This document shows, in pieces, positions 1,456-42,852 of a stretch of DNA of 61,100 nucleotides. How positions within the stretch are numbered: the stretch's first letter is position 1; each line of letters starts with the position of its first letter. Origin of the DNA: Hydrogenophaga sp. (GTDB lineage: Bacteria > Pseudomonadota > Gammaproteobacteria > Burkholderiales > Burkholderiaceae_C); NCBI RefSeq assembly GCF_014773545.1, contig NZ_SDDV01000012.1:1-61100 (forward strand). Reading direction: 5' to 3'. The notes beneath the pieces are model-generated. The model ran no database searches, was not told the origin of the DNA, and saw only the letters and a program-made list of their open reading frames with translations. The position numbers and the translations under genes are program-made.

Positions 1456-1797
1456 ATGCCCATTTATGCCTACGCGTGCGAGTCCTGTGGTCATGCCAAG
1501 GACGTGCTGCAAAAACTCTCTGACGCCGCTTTGAGCGTGTGCCCAGCCTGCGGCCAGCCCAGCTTCAAAAAACAACTCACCGCCGCCGGCTTTCAGCTCA
1601 AGGGCTCAGGCTGGTACGTGACCGATTTTCGTGACGGCAACAAACCCGCCGCCTCCAGTCCGGGCGCCGCAGACGCCGCTGCCACACCGGCCGCTGCTCA
1701 GGCCGCTTGCGCACCGGCCGCCGCTGATGCCGCTGCCAGCAGCACCGCAAAAAGCAGCCCGGCGCCGGCTGCGAGCGGCCCGGCGCCGTCGGCCTAA
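1456..1797 (+). CDS. FmdB-type zinc ribbon protein
   Basis: This 113-residue protein begins [20 protein letters not shown] and has a second CPACG pair near residue 38. The two CxxC knuckles form the small FmdB/CxxC zinc ribbon (putative regulatory protein family, also seen upstream of aspS in other betaproteobacteria). After about residue 65 the sequence is low-complexity Ala/Pro/Ser, probably a disordered tail. It sits 48 bp upstream of aspS in the same direction, so co-transcription is likely. Binding of zinc is inferred from the cysteines; the function is not known. Confidence 0.85.
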
Positions 1798-27849: not shown

Positions 27850-28440
27850 ATGGCAAGCCGCTTGCACCCAATCGCGCTGGCGCGCCCGCAGGCCGGCGTC
27901 AGCCTGATCGAGGTGTTGGTCTCGATTGTGCTGCTCTCGTTTGGCATCGTCGGTCTGGCGGGCCTGCAGTTGCACGGCAGCAGGTTCAACCACAGCGCCT
28001 ACCTGAGCTCGCAGGCCACCAACCTGGCGCACGACATCGCTGACCGCATGCGCGCCAACCTGGCCGCCGCCAACCTGCCGGCCGCGGGTCTGCCGGCGTC
28101 GGCCTACGTCACCGGGTTTGCCGACGTCTTCGATCCGGCACACGGCCCGGCTTGCAACGCCGTGCTGGGCGCAGCCAGTGCGGCGCGCGATGTCAACCAG
28201 TGGAAGAGCTGCCTGGAGCTGGCGCTGCCGCTCGGGCAGGGGCGCGTGAGCGAACTCAACCCCGGCCTGAACTACACCGACGCCTGCGGCGTGACCCATG
28301 CCGCGCACAACCACCCGGCCGGCTTGTTCGTGATCGAAATCACCTGGAGCAGGCTCAGAATTCAGAACGAGGACGATCTGGCACGCAACCCGAACCGGCT
28401 CGAGTGCGTGGTGCTGCGAACCGAAGTGGGGCCGACGTGA
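27850..28440 (+). CDS. pilV: type IV pilus minor pilin PilV
   Basis: This 196-residue minor pilin has the leader cut site PQAG|VSLIEVLVSI (Glu at +5) and a hydrophobic helix to about residue 40. The downstream GLQLHGSRFNHSAYLSSQATNLAHDIADRMRAN region is diagnostic of PilV. Central Cys residues (about 102, 119) may form disulfides. It follows fimT after 18 bp. Its stop overlaps the pilW GTG start (GTGA). Confidence 0.9.
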   Translation: MASRLHPIALARPQAGVSLIEVLVSIVLLSFGIVGLAGLQLHGSRFNHSAYLSSQATNLAHDIADRMRANLAAANLPAAGLPASAYVTGFADVFDPAHGPACNAVLGAASAARDVNQWKSCLELALPLGQGRVSELNPGLNYTDACGVTHAAHNHPAGLFVIEITWSRLRIQNEDDLARNPNRLECVVLRTEVGPT

Positions 28441-29258
28441 AACCCATGCCTGCCCTGGCGCGCCAGCGCGGCCTGTCGCTGATCGAGCTGATGATCAGCA
28501 TCACCTTGGGCCTGCTCGTCATCTTGGCCGTGACCTACGTGTTTGCCGCCAGCCGCGCCAGTTACCGCCACCAGGAGGCGCTGTCGAACGTGCAGGAATC
28601 CGGCCGCATGGCGCTGGAGCTGCTCACGCGCGACATCCGCATGGCCGGCCACCCGGGCTGCGGCAACCTGGCCTTTCTCGATCACCGCACCCCGGCCGAG
28701 TTCTCCAACGCCATGGTGCTCAGCGGGGTGGCCAACGCCGCCGCCGTGCCAGACAGCATCAGCTTGACCCGCGGCAGCGCCCACCCGGCCCGGCTGAGCG
28801 CTATTGCGGCCGCCAACCAGATCGAACTCGTCGACGCCGCCGTGCTGGGCAACCTGGTGGCGGGGGACCGATTGCTGCTGACCGACTGCGCCTTCACCGA
28901 AGTCGTGCAGGTCAGCGCGCGGCTGGGCAACCGGGTCACCACAGTCGCCCCGCTGACGCGCCAGTACGGCCCCGGCTCTTTCGTTATGCGGCTCGAACGC
29001 GTGGCCTACAGCGTCGCCGGCAACGAATTGCGCCGCAGCGTCGACGGCGCGCCGGGGCAGGCGGTGGCCGGCAACATCGCCAACATGAAGTTGTTTTACG
29101 GCATCGACAGCAGCGGCGACCGCTCGGTCGACAGCTATGTGGCAAACCCGGCAAACTGGGCCGAGGTGGTGGCGGTGCGGATCAACCTCAGCGTCACCGA
29201 GCGCGACGTCACGCTGCCGTTTTCGACCACCGTCGCTTTGCGCAACCGTGTGCCCTGA
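28437..29258 (+). CDS. pilW: type IV pilus minor pilin PilW
   Basis: This protein of about 273 residues has the leader cut site QRG|LSLIELMISITLG and the PilW signature SYRHQEALSNVQESGRMALE, followed by RDIRMAGHPGCGN. The mature body carries the conserved MRLERVAYSV and LRRSVDG segments. The start is taken at GTG 28437, which overlaps the pilV stop and has GTGGGG five bases upstream. ATG 28446 is the alternative. The order fimT-pilV-pilW-pilX matches minor-pilin operons of Pseudomonas and Acinetobacter type. Confidence 0.9.
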   Translation: MKPMPALARQRGLSLIELMISITLGLLVILAVTYVFAASRASYRHQEALSNVQESGRMALELLTRDIRMAGHPGCGNLAFLDHRTPAEFSNAMVLSGVANAAAVPDSISLTRGSAHPARLSAIAAANQIELVDAAVLGNLVAGDRLLLTDCAFTEVVQVSARLGNRVTTVAPLTRQYGPGSFVMRLERVAYSVAGNELRRSVDGAPGQAVAGNIANMKLFYGIDSSGDRSVDSYVANPANWAEVVAVRINLSVTERDVTLPFSTTVALRNRVP

Positions 29259-29281
29259 GAGGCTGAAAGTTTTTTGCTCCA

Positions 29282-29803
29282 ATGAAACCCAAGTCCTCGA
29301 CATCCAAGACCGGCGCCAGCCCCCCGCGTCGGCGCCAGCAGGGCGCGGTGCTGGTGGTCGGCCTGATCATCCTGGTCGTGCTGACGCTGATGGGCGTACA
29401 GGCCATGCGCACCAATTTGGTACAAGAACGCATGGCGTCCAATATGCGCGATCGCAATCTGGCCTTCCAGGCCGCCGAAGCGGCGCTGCGCGCGGGCGAA
29501 GCCTATGTGCAGGGGCAGGCGGCGGCTGATTTGCCAGACCCGGCCAACTGGGACGGTGCTTATCCCTTACCGCACGGCCGCGTGAAAAATTTCGACGCCG
29601 GGGTGGCTAGCGAACCGGTCTTTCATATCGGGAAGCTGCCGGGTGTGGACTCGCCGTCAGAGCTTCACTTGGTCACGGCACGCGGGGTGGGCGGGCAGGC
29701 CACCAGCGTGGTGGTCTTGCAGTCGACCTTTGAGCTGCCCGCGACCCAGCCCGATGGCTCGGTCGTACCGGGCAGACGTCAGAACTGGCGGCAACTGCGT
29801 TGA
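29282..29803 (+). CDS. pilX: type IV pilus minor pilin PilX
   Basis: This 173-residue protein has the PilX N-terminal pattern: a basic leader RRRQQG followed by AVLVVGLIILVVLTLMGVQAMR, then QERMASNMRDRNLAFQAAEAAL. PilX-type pilins lack the +5 Glu; here that region is hydrophobic, as expected. It directly precedes pilE. In the related operons pilY1, encoding the large tip adhesin, usually lies between pilX and pilE, but it is missing here. Confidence 0.9.
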   Translation: MKPKSSTSKTGASPPRRRQQGAVLVVGLIILVVLTLMGVQAMRTNLVQERMASNMRDRNLAFQAAEAALRAGEAYVQGQAAADLPDPANWDGAYPLPHGRVKNFDAGVASEPVFHIGKLPGVDSPSELHLVTARGVGGQATSVVVLQSTFELPATQPDGSVVPGRRQNWRQLR

Positions 29804-29839
29804 CGCTCCAGATTTCAGATCAATATGCGAAGGACTGCC

Positions 29840-30271
29840 ATGAGCAAACGATCCGAACGCGGTTTTACCCTGATTGAATTGATGATCGTGGTGGCCGTGA
29901 TCGGCATTCTGGCCGCCATCGCCTTTCCTTCGTACCAGCAATACGTGCAGCGCGCCCACCGCGCTGACGCGCAGGCCGACCTGCTCGAACTCGCGCAGTG
30001 GCTAGAGCGGCGCTACAGCCGACCGATAGACCCGGCCAGCGCCCGGGTCAACCGGTATGCGCTGGCGGACGGCGATCGCACGGCCGACCTGCCGTTCAAC
30101 CAGACGCCGCGCACCGGTGGCGCGCGCTACAACCTGGGCCTGAACGTCGCTGACGGCGGTCAATCGTTCGTTCTGAGCGCCACCCCGACGCCGGCCCAGG
30201 CCGCAGACGCCTGCGGCATCCTCACGATCAACCAGCGCGGCGCGACCACGCCCGCCTTGAACTGCTGGTAG
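29840..30271 (+). CDS. pilE: type IV minor pilin PilE (ComP/PilA-like)
   Basis: This 143-residue pilin has the cut site [21 protein letters not shown] with Glu at +5. Cysteines near the C terminus ([12 protein letters not shown]...NCW) form the terminal D-loop pair. The start at 29840 was chosen because AAGGA (29830-29834) sits six bases upstream; the ATG at 29825 is not supported. It lies 36 bp after pilX. The [19 protein letters not shown] segment is characteristic of PilE-type minor pilins rather than major PilA. Confidence 0.9.
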
Positions 30272-30392
30272 TCGACACGGTGCGCGGCGGGTCGGCTGCG
30301 CCGCTTGTCAGCCTACCCCACTTTTGGGATGCGCAGCAAGCCTGCTGCCGCCAGCATGGCCTTGGGCCGTGGCAGGCCTATGGAGGCGCGTG

Positions 30393-30962
30393 GTGGCAGT
30401 CGGCACTCATTCTTCAAGGCGAACGGGCGGCGTGACGCTGGTCGAGCTGTTGCTGGTGCTGGTTGTCGCGGGCATCTTGCTCGGCTTGGCCGCGCCGTCT
30501 TTGTCCGCCGCTGTCGATTCGGCGCGGTTGACCGCGCTGACCAACGACATGCTGGCCGAGCTCCTGCTGGCGCGCTCCGAAGCCGTGCGGCGCGGCCACC
30601 CGGTGGTCTTGTGCAAGGCCAGCACCGATTCGGTCTGTGCCCGATCCGGGCGCTGGGATCAGGGCTGGTTGATGTTCAAAGACTTCAATCACAACGCCGA
30701 GCGCGAAGCCAACGAGCCGGTGCTGCGCCAGCGCGCCGGCGCCCCACCGGGCTGGCGCATCGTCGGCAACCGCCCGGTGGCGCGCTACGTGGCTTACCAC
30801 CCGCTGGGCGGCACGCAGTTGAGCAGCGGCGCTTTCCAGGCTGGCACACTGACGATCTGCCGCCAAGCGGGATCGGTGCTGCAGGCGCGCCAAATCGTCA
30901 TCAACAGCTCGGGCCGCCCGCGCGTGCAGCCGGCGCCCCGTCTGCCGGCGGCCTGTGTTTGA
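30393..30962 (+). CDS. second GspH/FimT family pseudopilin (FimU-like)
   Basis: This 189-residue pseudopilin has the cut site RRTGG|VTLVELLLVLVVAGILLG and the LARSEAVRRGHPVVLCKAST segment shared with FimT/FimU. Paired Cys occur near the C terminus (LTICRQAG...PAACV). The start is set at GTG 30393 because GGAGG (30382-30386) lies six bases upstream. GTG 30390 is also possible, and the ATG at 30324 would give an unusually long leader. It is the last gene of the minor-pilin cluster and ends seven bases before the MITE-like element at 30969. Confidence 0.82.
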   Translation: MAVGTHSSRRTGGVTLVELLLVLVVAGILLGLAAPSLSAAVDSARLTALTNDMLAELLLARSEAVRRGHPVVLCKASTDSVCARSGRWDQGWLMFKDFNHNAEREANEPVLRQRAGAPPGWRIVGNRPVARYVAYHPLGGTQLSSGAFQAGTLTICRQAGSVLQARQIVINSSGRPRVQPAPRLPAACV

Positions 30963-32848: not shown

Positions 32849-33129
32849 GGTGGCAGTCTCGGGTGGCGTCAAACCCTGCGCGGCGCTGGCGGCAACGCGG
32901 CGCAGGGACTGCCCAGGCGAACGGCAAATCGCCCACGTCCCACGGGACGGCGAGCGGCGCGCTTCCCCGTGGTGGTCTCTGTCGCGCCATATGCAGCGGG
33001 CAAAGGGGCCACGTCGGCGCACCGACGCCCCGCCACAGCGGAATCGTCACAGCGCCTATCGCCAGTTGCGCACCGCTCTAGTTTAACGTGCCCGATCCGC
33101 GTCGCGCCGTGGCAGCCTCAGAGGCGGGA

Positions 33130-34023
33130 TCAGGACTGGCTCAGGACGGGCTCCGGGGTCACCAACGGCGCCGGCGCCGCCGCTGGCAGCAGCTCGGCAT
33201 CGCCATCCAGCGCTGCTGGCGCCGGTTGCGGCGTCTGCGCTGGCGCCGCCGCCGGTACTGCGGCTGCAGCGGCTGGGCGGTACTGAGCGATCTGACGCGG
33301 CATCGGTAGGCCACGTGCGGCGCGCTGGATGCGCTTTTGCTCGGCCAGCACGCGGTCGATGTACCAACGGCCGTCGGTGCTGACGGCGCCGACGTAGGCG
33401 CGCAAGGCACCCTCCACCGAGCCGGTGCGCCGAATGCCGTCTTGCAACACCATCACGCCCACGCGCAGGTTGGACACCGGATCAAACGCCGCCAGCTTGC
33501 CGCCAAAGTCTTCGAATTTTTCGCTGTGCACGCGCGTCATGACCTGCATCAGCCCTTGCGCGCCCATGGGGCTTTGGGCAAAGGGGTTAAAGCGCGACTC
33601 AATCGCCATCACGGCCAGAATGAGTGATGGGTCGATGTTGACCTTCTCACCCAGATAAAAAGCCTCTGCCACCAGCACGCTCAAGGGCTCGGGGGCGACG
33701 CGGTATTTGCGGCTGAGCCACCGAGTCACGTTGGCCTGCGCCTTGGGCAGTGCGCCGGGGTAGGCCGCCGTTACGCGGTCAATCGCCTGCGGGTCGGGCT
33801 CGATCGCCAACTCATCGAACACGGCCTCCTGGCGCTCGGTCAGCCAAGCCAGCAGATGCAGTTCAGCGCTGCTGCGCAGCTCGGGGCGCAGACTGAGCGT
33901 GACAGCGGCGACCAGCAGCAACAGGCCCAACAGCGTCAGGCCCTGCCACACTCCCCGACAGGTTCGGGTCAGAACGCTGCTCTGCTGCGCGGTTGTAGCT
34001 GGGTTCGGGTTTTGTTCGGTCAT
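33130..34023 (-). CDS. membrane-anchored lytic transglycosylase
   Basis: This 297-residue protein has a single N-terminal membrane helix (about 27-48) and a soluble SLT domain (about 135-235). The catalytic Glu is in LAVMAIESRFNPFAQSP, followed by the GAQGLMQVM loop typical of family 1 (Slt70/MltC/EmtA-like) enzymes. The last 60 residues are Ala/Pro-rich and probably disordered. It should cleave the glycan strand of peptidoglycan from the periplasmic side. The start at 34023 fits the gene body. Upstream lies the 654-bp gene-free region. Confidence 0.9.
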   Translation of the reverse strand: MTEQNPNPATTAQQSSVLTRTCRGVWQGLTLLGLLLLVAAVTLSLRPELRSSAELHLLAWLTERQEAVFDELAIEPDPQAIDRVTAAYPGALPKAQANVTRWLSRKYRVAPEPLSVLVAEAFYLGEKVNIDPSLILAVMAIESRFNPFAQSPMGAQGLMQVMTRVHSEKFEDFGGKLAAFDPVSNLRVGVMVLQDGIRRTGSVEGALRAYVGAVSTDGRWYIDRVLAEQKRIQRAARGLPMPRQIAQYRPAAAAAVPAAAPAQTPQPAPAALDGDAELLPAAAPAPLVTPEPVLSQS

Positions 34024-34215: not shown

Positions 34216-34367
34216 CGCGGCGTTTTTGTCATTTCAAGTCCTTGCTCCCGCTGCCAGGCACAGCCGCCGGGGCGGTTTTCCACCGCTGCCGCTGCTCGCT
34301 TGCCAATGCTCTTTGGCGCTGCGGCGCCTGATTTTCAGCAGCGGCCATCGGGCAGGCGATAAAAATT

Positions 34368-34373
34368 TAAAAT
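34368..34373 (+). promoter_or_regulatory. candidate -10 element (TAAAAT) for the structured RNA
   Basis: TAAAAT lies within an AT-rich patch (34361-34380) whose 15-mer AAAATTTAAAATTTT is nearly palindromic. It is the only good -10 match upstream of the hairpin series. Initiation about seven bases later (near 34380) would give an RNA of roughly 220 bases up to the U-tract at 34601. No convincing -35 hexamer is seen at the expected spacing, so the assignment is tentative. Confidence 0.3.
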
Positions 34374-34379
34374 TTTCAT

Positions 34380-34601
34380 TGCAAAACCCTTGCCACCCGC
34401 CTCACCCAGGCGTAAGCTGTAGTCGTCTGCCAGCATGGCAGGCGCGGTCCGGCAAAGTGGTAAATCCGCTTGCCGGTACTCCATGGAAGCAATCTCTTGC
34501 TTCCAGGCTGGCGGGACATCAAACTCCCGCCGCCAAAGCCGACGGCACGGGTTTTCACCCGCCGTCAGCCCCGGCAGTTCATAGCCGCCGGGGTTTTTTT
34601 T
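34380..34601 (+). ncRNA. candidate structured non-coding RNA (seven consecutive hairpins)
   Basis: Seven stem-loops follow one another: 34398-34412 (CGCC/GGCG), 34424-34444 (9 bp, loop GCA), 34449-34476 (7 bp plus inner pairs), 34484-34505 (9 bp, loop TCTC), 34510-34531 (7 bp, loop of eight), 34541-34566 (6+3 bp) and 34569-34593 (7 bp). The last is followed by eight Ts, forming an intrinsic terminator. Spacers are short. No ORF with a recognisable product covers it. I cannot match it to tmRNA, RNase P, 6S, SRP RNA or riboswitches I know. The 5' end is inferred. Confidence 0.55.
34569..34601 (+). terminator. intrinsic terminator of the structured RNA
   Basis: CCCCGGC pairs with GCCGGGG across an 11-base loop and is followed by eight consecutive Ts (34594-34601). 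This is a strong Rho-independent terminator on the plus strand. It ends 76 bp before the DUF349 gene, so it terminates the upstream RNA, or attenuates a leader if that RNA runs into the gene. Confidence 0.85.
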
Positions 34602-34677
34602 ATTCTTCGATGCGGCGACAATACGGGCCTGGCCCGCGCTGCCCCGGCGGGGGTTGTCGCATCAGCCGATTCCATTT

Positions 34678-37341
34678 ATGTCGTTGTTTTCCCTGCGCAA
34701 GCCATCGCCCCAGCCCAAACCGGCTGAATCTGCGGCACCCCCACCGGCGGCCCAAAAACCCGCCGGATCGGGCGCCCCCCACCCCCTGGACGCCTTGACC
34801 GGCGGCGCTTTTTCCGCCCCCACTTCGGGCGAGCGGGCTGCGCGCTTGCGCGAGTGGCTGGGCACAGAGCCCACGCTGGAGCAAATGAACGAGGTGTTCA
34901 AAGAGTTTTCACAGCGTGACCGCGGTGCCGCCAAGCTGCTCAAGGAAAAGCTGGACGAGATCAAGCGCCAAAAATTGCAGCAGCAGATCGCGATTGAATG
35001 GATGCAAAAAGCGCAACACCTGCTCGCGCAACCGCGCCTGAACCTGGCCGACGCACTGGCCTGGCAGCGCGATGCGGCGCGCGCCGGTGCGCCGCTGTCG
35101 CGCGATCCGCTGGCGGCCTTGAAACTGGCGCTGACCGAGCGCGTCAAGGCGATCGAAGACCTGCAACACCGGGTACAAGTGCAGCGCGAAGCGGCGGTAC
35201 TGCTGGCGCAGCGCATCGAGGTGCTGTCAACCAAACCCTGGCGCGAAGCCCAGCACATGGCCCAGTCGCTGCGCAGCGACGTGGCCCACTGGCAGCAGCA
35301 GGCCGCAGACTTGCCGACCGACCCGCAGTGGCCCAGCGTCGAGCCCAAGTTCCCGCCTATGTTGGAGGCCTCGCGCAGCCAGTTGCAAATGGTGTGGGAG
35401 GCGTTCGATGCGGCGCTAGCGCAGGCCGTTGCCGCCGATGCCCAGGCCCAGGCAGCGCTGCCCGCCGTCCCGGTGTGGGCCGACGAACTGCGCGCCGCTC
35501 GTGGTCAGGCGGCCGCCGTACCGTCGGAAAAAACCGCCCAGGCCGCGCAAGCCACCCAGGCCCTGCGCGAGCGCCTAGGCGCCGAACTCGAGCGCGCGCT
35601 GGACGCGCTGGAGCGCGAGATCGGCCAAGGCCACGGCAAGGCAACGCCGCAGGCTGCTGCCGAGCTGCGCGCGCTGCTCAAGCGCTGCGCCGGGGTGCAG
35701 CTTGCCGATGCGCTGCAAGCGCGCGCGCACGCCGCCCTGACCCAGGCCGACGAACTCGAGGGCTGGCAGCGCTGGCGGGCCGATCAATTGCGCAACGAAT
35801 TGCTCGCTCGCGCCGAAGCGCTGCTGCAAGCGCCTGAAGGCCAGCGACTGGGCGGGCGCAAAATGCAAGAAACCTTGCGCGAGCTGCGCCAACAATGGAA
35901 AGCCACTGACCAGGGCGGCGTGCCCAATCACGCGCTGTGGAAGCGTTTTGACGAGGCCTGCACGCAGGCGCATCAGGTGGTCGAGAACTGGCTGACCCAA
36001 TGGCGTCAGCAGGCCGACGCCCAACGGGCGCAGCGGCTCGCACTCATAGACGAAGTCAAGGCCTGGACTGCGTTGCAGCAAGACAGCAACGACAAGCGCG
36101 TCCAGTTGCACGAGCTGCACGCGTTCTCGGAACGCTGGCGCTCGGCCGGCCATCTGAGCGAAAAAGCCTTTGCCGAGTTGCAGCCGCTCTGGAAGGCGGT
36201 CATGCAAGACGCGCACGCCCCGCTGGAGGCGGCGCAGAGCCAGAGCACGGCGCGTCGGCGCGCCATGATCGAAGAAGCCACGGCACTGGGTGCTGCGCAG
36301 CCGCTGCACATCGACGCCGTGCGGGCCTTGCAACAACGCTGGCAGGCCGAGGCGCAGGCGGTGCCACTGGAGCGCAAACATGAACAACAACTCTGGCAGG
36401 CGTTTCGCCAGCCAATCGACGCCGCCTTTGCCCGCAAGAGCCAGCAGCGTGAACAGGCCGACGCAGCACTGGGCGCGCACGACCAGCGGGTGCTGACGGC
36501 AGCGCGCGCACTCGAGGCGGCCAGCGCCAGCGGCGACGCGCAGCAGGTTCGCGCCGCCATGGCCGCGCTCGATGCCGCTTTATTGGACCAGCCAGCACCG
36601 ACCGCAGCAGCGCCCCAGGCCCGCCCGGCACCGCAGACGCTGCCAGAATCTGCGGCGCACGCGCCGCAGACGGAGCAAGCGGGCGCTGCGCCCGCAGCGC
36701 CCGCACCGAGCACAGCAGCGAAGAAAGTGCAGGCGGTGCGCGGCGACGACCGCCCCGGCATGAAGAAGACCGAACCGGTCGGGCGCGACGGCCAGCGTGC
36801 CGAAAGGACGCCGGGCAGGCGTGACGCTGCCGCACCGCGCCGCGAGCTGCGCGACGCGCGTGAAGAACGCGAACCGCGCGGCCCGCGCCTGGGCGAAGCG
36901 GCCTTTCGCGCCCAGCGCCATGCACTTGAGCAGGCGCAGATGAGCTTGCGCCAACTGGCCGAACAGGCGCATGGCGAGGTACTGTCGCAGCTCCTGAGCG
37001 CCTGGGAGCGGCGCGACGCGCAACTGCTGCCCCCGGCGGCCGCCCTGGCTCCGCACCTGACGCCGGCCCTGCGTGCAGACTGGGCGGCCGCGCTGGCGCA
37101 AGCACCCGCGCCCTGCTCGCCGCACATCTTGTTGCGGCTGGAAATGGCGGCCGAGTTGCCCACGCCCGCCGAGCACCTGAGTGAACGCCGGCTGTTGCAG
37201 TTGCAGTTGCTGACACAGCGCAAGCTGCCCAGCCCGGCACAAACCTGGGCGCAGGACGTGAGCAAGCTGCTGGCCAGCGGCTACGACGCTGCCAGCGCAC
37301 GCCGGCTGCAAAACGCCCTGAAGGCGCTGCTCAAGCGCTGA
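34678..37341 (+). CDS. DUF349 domain-containing protein
   Basis: This 887-residue, largely helical protein begins MSLFSLRKPSPQPKP with a Pro/Ala-rich lead. From about residue 60 it has coiled-coil-like helices with at least two DUF349-type repeats. Their signatures are LRELRQQWKATDQGG...ALWKRFDEAC (about 395-425) and LQQRWQAEAQAVP...LWQAFRQPIDAAF (about 550-580). A low-complexity Ala/Pro stretch (about 640-680) precedes an Arg-rich linker and a C-terminal helical domain. No enzymatic motif is seen and no function is known. It follows the structured RNA by 76 bp; its stop overlaps the convergent mtfA end by 11 bases. Confidence 0.85.
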   Translation: MSLFSLRKPSPQPKPAESAAPPPAAQKPAGSGAPHPLDALTGGAFSAPTSGERAARLREWLGTEPTLEQMNEVFKEFSQRDRGAAKLLKEKLDEIKRQKLQQQIAIEWMQKAQHLLAQPRLNLADALAWQRDAARAGAPLSRDPLAALKLALTERVKAIEDLQHRVQVQREAAVLLAQRIEVLSTKPWREAQHMAQSLRSDVAHWQQQAADLPTDPQWPSVEPKFPPMLEASRSQLQMVWEAFDAALAQAVAADAQAQAALPAVPVWADELRAARGQAAAVPSEKTAQAAQATQALRERLGAELERALDALEREIGQGHGKATPQAAAELRALLKRCAGVQLADALQARAHAALTQADELEGWQRWRADQLRNELLARAEALLQAPEGQRLGGRKMQETLRELRQQWKATDQGGVPNHALWKRFDEACTQAHQVVENWLTQWRQQADAQRAQRLALIDEVKAWTALQQDSNDKRVQLHELHAFSERWRSAGHLSEKAFAELQPLWKAVMQDAHAPLEAAQSQSTARRRAMIEEATALGAAQPLHIDAVRALQQRWQAEAQAVPLERKHEQQLWQAFRQPIDAAFARKSQQREQADAALGAHDQRVLTAARALEAASASGDAQQVRAAMAALDAALLDQPAPTAAAPQARPAPQTLPESAAHAPQTEQAGAAPAAPAPSTAAKKVQAVRGDDRPGMKKTEPVGRDGQRAERTPGRRDAAAPRRELRDAREEREPRGPRLGEAAFRAQRHALEQAQMSLRQLAEQAHGEVLSQLLSAWERRDAQLLPPAAALAPHLTPALRADWAAALAQAPAPCSPHILLRLEMAAELPTPAEHLSERRLLQLQLLTQRKLPSPAQTWAQDVSKLLASGYDAASARRLQNALKALLKR

Positions 37342-41713: not shown

Positions 41714-42852
41714 TACGAACCCGTGGTTTCGCGCACGATCAGCCAGCGGCCGCCACTTTTCACCATCGCGAGCGTCTTGCGGCTGTTCAAATTGACGTTG
41801 TCAGACGAAAAAGACTGACGAAAACGCACCGTGGCGCGCTCGCCATCAACCCGGATCGACAGGTCGTGCACGCCGACGCTGATGCGCGCACGTGGCACGA
41901 TGCGCGCCGTGCGCTCTGCCTCCCAGGCCGAGCGCGAGAGTCCGCCTTCAGGCCGAAAGCCCGGGCCGTAGGCAGCCAGATAGCCTTTCATGTCGCGCGC
42001 CGACCAGGCGCGCGCCCAGGCACGCACCGCCGCTTCGACCTCGCGCTCGGCCGCAGCAGCCGGCGCCGGCGCAGCAGTGGCCGCAGTGGCCGCAGTGGCC
42101 GCAGTGGCCGCAGTGGCCGTGGCAGCAGCAGCAGCGGCTGGCCTGGCTGCCGGTGCCGGTGCCGGTGCCGGTGCCGGTGCCGGTGTGGCTGCGGCCAGCG
42201 CAGGGGCGGCGGCTGCCGGGCGCGCACCCGGGGCGGGCGCAGTGGCAGCTCGCGCCGCCGTGCCGCTGGGTCGAACGCCACTGGCCTCAGCGGCAAACAG
42301 GTTTCGGATCAGATTCAGCTTGGGCGGCAGCGCCGTGTTGCCGGCGTCGAGCTGCAAGGCCCGGCTGTAGGCCTGACTGGCCAGCTTGGCGTAGATGTCG
42401 CCCAGATTTTCGTGCGCGGTGGCGTAGCTCGGGTTGGTGCGAATGGCCATCTCGAGCGCGGCGCGTGCCTGGTCGAACTGACCCTGACTGGCAAACAGCA
42501 CGGCCAGGTTGTTGTACGGCTCGGGCAGTTCGGGAAACTCTTGTGTCAGTTGGCTGAAGGTGGCAATGGCATCGGCGCTGCGACCGCTTTCGGTTTGAAT
42601 GACGCCGCGCAAAAAGCGCAGTTGCGGGTCCCGCGGCTGGGTGCTGAGCAGTTGATCGACCCGGGTCAGGGCTTGGTTGAGCTGTCCGGCCTGGATCAGG
42701 CGGTTGATCTCGGCGTGCTCGTTGGCCTGTGCCAGCGCCCCCGACAGTCCAAAAGAAGCCAGCAGCGCCAGCGCTAGGCACAAGCGCCCGATCCGCGCGC
42801 CGAATCCGCCACGGCGCTGCAGGTCGAAACAGAGACGAATCGGATAGAGCAT
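41713..42852 (-). CDS. secreted TPR protein with C-terminal NTF2-like domain
   Basis: This 379-residue protein has a signal peptide (about 18-42, LCLALALLASFGLSGALAQA) and about four TPR-like helices (45-180, with LPEPYNNLAVLFASQGQFDQ and AHENLGDIYAKLA). A long Ala/Pro/Thr linker (about 190-265) follows. A C-terminal NTF2/SnoaL-like domain (about 270-379) begins VEAAVRAWARAWSARDMKGY and ends GGRWLIVRE. The linker DNA consists of short tandem repeats. It overlaps the L,D-transpeptidase gene, so the two are probably partners in cell-wall remodelling. Confidence 0.8.
   Translation of the reverse strand: MLYPIRLCFDLQRRGGFGARIGRLCLALALLASFGLSGALAQANEHAEINRLIQAGQLNQALTRVDQLLSTQPRDPQLRFLRGVIQTESGRSADAIATFSQLTQEFPELPEPYNNLAVLFASQGQFDQARAALEMAIRTNPSYATAHENLGDIYAKLASQAYSRALQLDAGNTALPPKLNLIRNLFAAEASGVRPSGTAARAATAPAPGARPAAAAPALAAATPAPAPAPAPAPAARPAAAAAATATAATAATAATAATAAPAPAAAAEREVEAAVRAWARAWSARDMKGYLAAYGPGFRPEGGLSRSAWEAERTARIVPRARISVGVHDLSIRVDGERATVRFRQSFSSDNVNLNSRKTLAMVKSGGRWLIVRETTGS
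42075..42184 (+). repeat. short tandem repeats in the TPR-protein linker
   Basis: Five perfect copies of the 9-mer CAGTGGCCG occupy 42075-42119, and six perfect copies of the hexamer GCCGGT occupy 42149-42184. They lie in frame inside the gene at 41713-42852 and encode the Ala-Thr-Ala and Ala-Pro runs of its linker. Copy number could change by slippage without shifting the frame, since both units are multiples of three. Confidence 0.9.

Follow-up and report, generated by a model that had tools for sequence, protein, structure and literature searches.

What does the long gap between the lytic transglycosylase gene and the DUF349 gene of Hydrogenophaga sp. encode, and does it serve either neighbor? 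We addressed this question in a window of 61,100 nt (the whole stretch of DNA that was analyzed; contig NZ_SDDV01000012.1, positions 1 to 61,100), in which a first-pass annotation had flagged positions 34380–34601 as a structured RNA of seven hairpins, either a discrete sRNA or a leader of DUF349. The layout it described holds: ATG starts at 34023 and 34678 enclose 654 bp without a gene, a terminator stem is followed by T8 at 34594–34601, and 76 bp separate this terminator from the DUF349 start at 34678. The stem-loops in series are likewise present, with a stability well above that of shuffled sequences. The interval 34380–34606 folds at −111.6 kcal/mol, compared to −77.9 ± 4.7 kcal/mol in shuffles (z = −7.15; 0/200), and no shuffle (0/200) matched the predicted transcript 34425–34601 when it was folded alone. 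A perfect 9-bp stem (TGGAAGCAA/TTGCTTCCA, 34484–34505) is present. The hairpin count has to be revised, as the minimum-free-energy fold of the interval gives eight rather than seven. Because transcription is predicted from near G34425, the likely RNA comprises six hairpins and ~177 nt instead of ~222 bases starting near 34380. We are highly confident that 34425–34601 on the plus strand is a conserved, covarying six-hairpin element, predicted to form a free-standing sRNA gene (Table 1).

Table 1 Features of the predicted small RNA and its surroundings in the window. Fractions of 49 refer to same-genus rows and fractions of 78 to context loci.
Feature	Position	Strand	Observation
Lytic transglycosylase (SLT domain), divergent neighbor	33130–34023	−	Pfam PF01464; adjoins the RNA in 74/78 loci
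Upstream A/T-rich box, AATTTAAAATTTTCATTGC in the window, genus consensus GATTGAAAATCTCCATGGC-like	34364–34382	+	Possible UP element or regulator site
Predicted −35 hexamer TTGCCA	34390–34395	+	TTG (34390–34392) in 49/49
Predicted −10 hexamer TAAGCT	34413–34418	+	TA (34413–34414) and T34418 in 49/49, C34417 in 48/49
Predicted small RNA	34425–34601	+	~177 nt, +1 near G34425; fold z = −8.69, covariation, G34425 in 48/49
Hairpin H1	34425–34443	+	7/7 consensus pairs with two-sided changes; 94.6% of cells paired
Hairpin H2, two stacked helices	34446–34480	+	6/7 consensus pairs with two-sided changes
Hairpin H3, perfect stem, UCUC loop, family core	34484–34505	+	99.0% of cells paired, 61 rows
Hairpin H4, 8-nt loop	34506–34534	+	9/9 pairs with two-sided changes; 71.3% of cells paired, with gap slippage in the alignment there
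Hairpin H5	34541–34566	+	94.0% of cells paired in the outer stem, 78.7% in the three inner pairs, each of which has two-sided changes
Hairpin H6 and T8, intrinsic terminator	34567–34601	+	97.2% of cells paired; T8 at 34594–34601
GACAATA box, promoter-like, assigned to DUF349, outside the RNA	34617–34623	+	By eye
DUF349 protein, neighbor	34678–37341	+	Pfam PF03993; nearest downstream gene in 24/78 loci

The predicted start rests on a putative promoter that would likely be sigma-70-type by consensus. Its two hexamers are separated by a 17-nt spacer in 49/49 same-genus copies with upstream DNA (a set that includes L043, which is cut by a contig end), and the spacer itself is mostly variable by eye, with the exceptions of G34410 (47/49) and G34412 (44/49). 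G34425 lies 6 bases past the −10 box and opens hairpin H1. The first two stem-loops of the minimum-free-energy fold (34381–34393 and 34398–34412) extend over the −35 box and into the spacer and are predicted not to be transcribed. Since the start is predicted near G34425, the first two hairpins of the first-pass annotation would belong to the promoter and not to the transcript, so that the leading 45 bases of 34380–34601 are re-annotated as promoter. By eye, many loci of other genera carry a comparable arrangement of TTG and TAnnnT upstream. A simple promoter scan, whose cut-off lies above the scores of these hexamers, did not list the RNA promoter, and the terminator scan paired with it did not list the terminator; the case for the predicted promoter and terminator rests on conservation. 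The A/T-rich box farther upstream spans 19 columns: at 14 of them 33–45 of the 49 rows carry the majority letter, at the other five 23–32 rows do, and the genus consensus is about GATTGAAAATCTCCATGG. Many other-genus loci show ATTGAAAA near the −35 box, and often CAATC ~20 bases farther upstream (by eye).

The hairpins are backed by covariation. Our same-genus alignment A1 comprises 48 rows, taken from the 50 loci of a DNA search without L043 and without L050 (genome G074; E = 5e-4), which gave no match on realignment. In A1, 97.2% of 2446 cells are paired, a value that is favored by a structure taken from the same alignment; when this structure is slid off register, pairing falls to 34–49%. 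Double-sided changes occur in 27 of the 51 consensus pairs (136 such cells), and none of five measures was matched by any of 500 shuffles. The family-wide core alignment A3 (61 rows, namely 61 core sequences minus L129, L133, and L159 plus three same-genus ones) retains H3, H4, H5, and the terminator, with 88.9% of 2114 cells paired and double-sided changes in 23 of 35 pairs (223 such cells; 0/500 shuffles). The check that the first-pass annotation had proposed, covariation of the stems among relatives, therefore came out strongly in favor of conserved stems. A further alignment, A2, includes one stray antisense fragment (L177, 4931–4958).

Individual hairpins differ in how they are conserved. 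The four GCAA/UUGC pairs of H3 are identical in 61, 60, 61, and 61 of 61 rows while its outer pairs covary, and by its sequence H3 is the signature of the family. H4 is the weakest helix of A3 (71.3% of cells) and its loop varies from clade to clade, and the form of H2 is not preserved outside the genus (by eye). In H6, one G-C pair is swapped to C-G in 17/61 rows. The loops of the window fold read GCA, UAAAU, UCUC, CAUCAAAC, UUUC, and CAU, and conserved unpaired letters in A1 are few and occur in very short runs. Instead of a long run of U, the relatives have UUUCUU at the 3′ end, with the C present in 98% of A1 rows. A small protein was rejected as an explanation: 34/48 rows contain no ORF of at least 15 aa within the RNA and no frame is common to the genus. 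Such an ORF is found in the other 14 rows including the window, and in eight of these it is the same 26-codon frame with an ATG start.

To describe the distribution, we counted genomes as good from 90% completeness upward if contamination did not exceed 5%. Among 147 genomes, the window's own plus relatives, the DNA search matched 50, of which 49, the window's own included, belong to the same genus. Model R1 matched 58/67 genomes of the genus and 44/44 of the good ones, and the nine misses are all 55–87% complete. Copy number is usually one per genome; weak second matches occur in G001, G007, G014, and G016, second matches also in G318 and G422, and the sole match in G029 is weak (33 bits). 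The H3 core pattern was found in 39 named records, comprising 32 Hydrogenophaga (records of H. pseudoflava among them), one Serpentinimonas, and six unclassified records that are named as Betaproteobacteria, Burkholderiales, or Comamonadaceae bacterium. Within the family (Hydrogenophaga belongs to Comamonadaceae in NCBI taxonomy), R1 matched 144/399 genomes in 60/141 genera, and the core model R3 matched 161/397 genomes (160/388 good ones) in 58/126 genera. In over half of the family's searched genomes the element is thus missing or unrecognised, and given the strict search filters a genome without a match is no proof of absence. An even sample of the order yielded 13/399 matches with R3, ten of them within the family. 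Among the three outside it, only that in G118 (L190; E = 1.5e-7) is convincing, and those in G671 and G754 (E = 7e-4) may be due to chance. L190 is a diverged copy (1501–1618, minus strand) from a different family, in a genome of 1.7 Mb, located between rpiA and an iron-trafficking gene, which suggests an older origin or a transfer. An origin from phages or plasmids was rejected, as neither collection gave a match at E 1e-5. Presence in all good genomes of the genus that were searched, and in 58/126 of the genera sampled, points to a general function under selection.

We determined the context of 78 loci (the window itself, L031–L049 except L043 and L046, which leaves 17 of 19, and all 60 of L120–L179) by tblastn with the window's neighbors plus a DUF748 and a DUF1841 protein. 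Among the families sought, the nearest downstream gene is a co-directional DUF748 in 43 loci, a co-directional DUF349 in 24, and a convergent DUF1841 in eight. The remaining three have none of these downstream: L154 ends 70 bp past the RNA, L161 carries a convergent cytochrome c gene and neither usual neighbor, and L133 shows a co-directional long ORF. On the other side, the four loci without the transglycosylase comprise three that retain DUF748 and one (L161) that has neither neighbor. In the short loci L001–L030, of which the 29 loci L002–L030 stand apart from the 78, the transglycosylase adjoins the RNA in 30/30, and in a set of 25 loci, which samples some genera repeatedly, in 17/25. The eight loci without it in this set come from two genera (five and three loci, respectively), which are represented among the 78 by L161, L163, and L169. 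The RNA is independent of either flanking gene: neighbors vary on both sides while the RNA stays, which ties it to neither.

These data bear directly on the second reading of the first-pass annotation, a leader RNA of DUF349, which can be widened to a 5′ leader or attenuator that would control, by conditional termination, the gene that follows (DUF349 in the window and DUF748 in most relatives). Of the families sought, a co-directional DUF349 or DUF748 is indeed the closest one downstream in 67/78 loci, and the tblastn matches of these genes start −21 to +381 bp from the 3′ end of the RNA. A leader or riboswitch, however, would always be followed by a co-directional gene, and 9/78 loci lack one right behind the RNA, as the next gene is a convergent DUF1841 in eight and a convergent cytochrome c gene in one. 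Moreover, unrelated families alternate as the next gene while the RNA is retained, DUF349 itself being next in just 24/78, and general inspection of the consensus fold shows no conspicuous antiterminator pairing. Among the 78 loci, 13 belong to the same genus and have DUF349 next; in each of these the GACAATA box lies 3′ of the terminator and before the start codon (13/13; by eye). Given the varying downstream gene and the separate, conserved promoter-like box of DUF349, we disfavor the DUF349 leader and regard a leader or attenuator of any of these genes as highly improbable; DUF349 is probably not attenuated by the terminator of the RNA.

Several further features were observed around the locus and in the rest of the window. 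In many relatives, a DUF748/AsmA-like gene of ~1265 aa (884–4681 in L121) separates the RNA from DUF349; this gene is absent at 34602–34677 of the window and in 12 other same-genus loci; this difference is a lineage-specific loss or insertion. Just 3′ of the terminator and upstream of DUF349, 34608–34664 (plus strand) contains another long inverted repeat (GATGCGGCGACAA...TTGTCGCATC), of which the same-genus alignment showed no counterpart by eye. Judged from translations only, reading frames clustered at 27850–30962 (plus strand) resemble minor pilins of type IV pili. ARAGORN called a tRNA-Gly at 42105–42199 (plus strand) within a low-complexity protein-coding frame; Rfam gave no such call at its threshold, and the ARAGORN call is probably false.

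How might a free-standing RNA of this kind act? Judged by sequence only, it has its own promoter and intrinsic terminator within an intergenic region, as trans-encoded sRNAs do. With no genus-wide reading frame and no fixed co-directional gene in addition, a trans-acting sRNA is the simplest explanation, and because the gene beyond the RNA differs while paired bases covary across dozens of genera, it likely regulates genes elsewhere. We consider it probable that the RNA acts as a regulator in trans; the fuller proposal, a free-standing sRNA with its own promoter and terminator that likely serves as a trans-acting post-transcriptional regulator, is one we favor with reservation. The element would be transcribed from its likely sigma-70-type promoter to the intrinsic terminator (34425–34601) and would then regulate, post-transcriptionally and in trans, mRNAs made elsewhere. 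The family-wide core of H3, H4, H5, and terminator would be the working part, and H1–H2 a faster-evolving 5′ part. Hfq-assisted pairing would involve short exposed segments, namely the loops of H3 and H4 and the adjoining linkers.

Whether pairing with Hfq or binding of a protein is the mode of action is weighed by the following observations. Hfq is encoded in the window's genome, in which no match to a ProQ domain was found. Pairing with the flanking genes gave no clear signal and was rejected: duplex scores of the loops with own and foreign 5′ regions, weak evidence in which paired bases were masked crudely, barely differ for the transglycosylase (−8.60 vs −8.57; 74 loci, mean rank 33.9 of 73), DUF349 (−10.09 vs −9.94; 41 loci, mean rank 18.0 of 40), and DUF748 (−11.38 vs −11.09; 42 loci, mean rank 18.3 of 41). 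Since these scores are nearly equal, the neighbors show no sign of being targets. The short conserved exposed runs together with the clade-variable H4 loop would make a weak pairing seed, and an interrupted U tail such as UUUCUU is a poor Hfq tail. As the H3 stem is invariant, protein recognition also fits: a protein would recognize the hairpins, chiefly H3, and the RNA would titrate, carry, or regulate it with little or no mRNA pairing. This would account for stem letters that, beyond the pairing itself, are fixed in H3 and almost fixed in part of H5, for an RNA that is almost fully paired with short conserved unpaired runs, and for the interrupted U tail of the relatives, which suits Hfq poorly. 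However, the loops of the window fold lack a GGA motif of the CsrA type, and the ProQ domain is unmatched in this genome. We hold the protein-binding mode to be rather unlikely, and pairing with Hfq in its place to be the single likeliest mode, a tentative choice that falls somewhat short of probable. A related view, in which the element is a core single-copy housekeeping RNA of Comamonadaceae that binds protein via the invariant H3, as a family-specific counterpart in role and not in descent of CsrB or 6S RNA, retained in all near-complete Hydrogenophaga-group genomes that were searched and, with an intact core, next to new neighbors, appears unlikely to us.

For Comamonadaceae, in which limited literature searches surfaced no sRNA study, the element provides a conserved RNA that is backed by covariation, has a calibrated model and a predicted start site, and occupies a nearly constant place in the genome. 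It can be tested in a culturable Hydrogenophaga strain.

Finally, we compared the element with known RNAs. The first-pass annotation had recognized no family, in agreement with our search of the window: none of the 4227 models of Rfam 15 reached its gathering score over 34380–34601. Nor was there a hit at threshold at the RNA in six same-genus loci, in 18 of the 25 other-genus loci L095–L119, or in the outlying copy L190, and a known Rfam family was rejected for the window and the relatives scanned. Together with the conserved promoter, the covarying hairpins, and the terminator, this supports on sequence grounds the reading as a discrete sRNA. A known family missed by the Rfam thresholds, such as anti-hemB (Burkholderia RNA 7; RF02837) or the Burkholderiales-1 motif, is very unlikely in our view. 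Anti-hemB, a betaproteobacterial sRNA by its Rfam name, is the top sub-threshold match in the window (23.7 bits) and recurs below threshold in two relatives (27.4 bits in L035 and 23.6 bits in L102), sharing an intrinsic-terminator part with a GC-rich stem and a U run. It requires 49.5 bits, however, and its 81 model positions, compared to ~177 nt of the window RNA, match only the 3′ part (34525–34601), leaving H1–H3 and most of H4 unmatched. CsrB/RsmZ-type sRNAs similarly form a hairpin array that ends in a terminator; they are defined by repeated GGA in hairpin loops, a motif that the loops of the window fold lack. The ZMP/ZTP riboswitch (RF01750) is a structured RNA less than 2 kb away and differs in strand and place. 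Its candidate at 32904–33079 (minus strand), upstream of the serine hydroxymethyltransferase gene glyA, scores 36.2 bits against a gathering score of 39 and is likely such a riboswitch; in 7/18 other-genus loci scanned, a match on this side of the transglycosylase gene passes the gathering score.

Our searches of the open-licence PMC literature, a scope outside which most subscription papers and all supplements fall, turned up no paper that describes the RNA by title or abstract. The Burkholderiales-1 motif (Weinberg 2010) appears as a table row without an Rfam accession in PMC2864571, as far as that table goes. A model of how the window RNA may work is Bordetella S17 (Burkholderia bdhR1), which, according to PMC11722255, has a sigma-A-dependent promoter, a 190-nt primary transcript, and an intrinsic terminator, is conserved among Betaproteobacteria, and acts as an Hfq-dependent repressor in trans. 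The window RNA is predicted to resemble it in promoter, length, terminator, and conservation. However, S17/bdhR1 adjoins coq7 and a glycosyltransferase gene, and its conserved part is the 27-nt 5′ end of the processed form (PMC11722255). Our RNA occupies another locus, and A1 contains no invariant run of 27 nt. We file the RNA as a new family within a known kind, the free-standing bacterial sRNAs.
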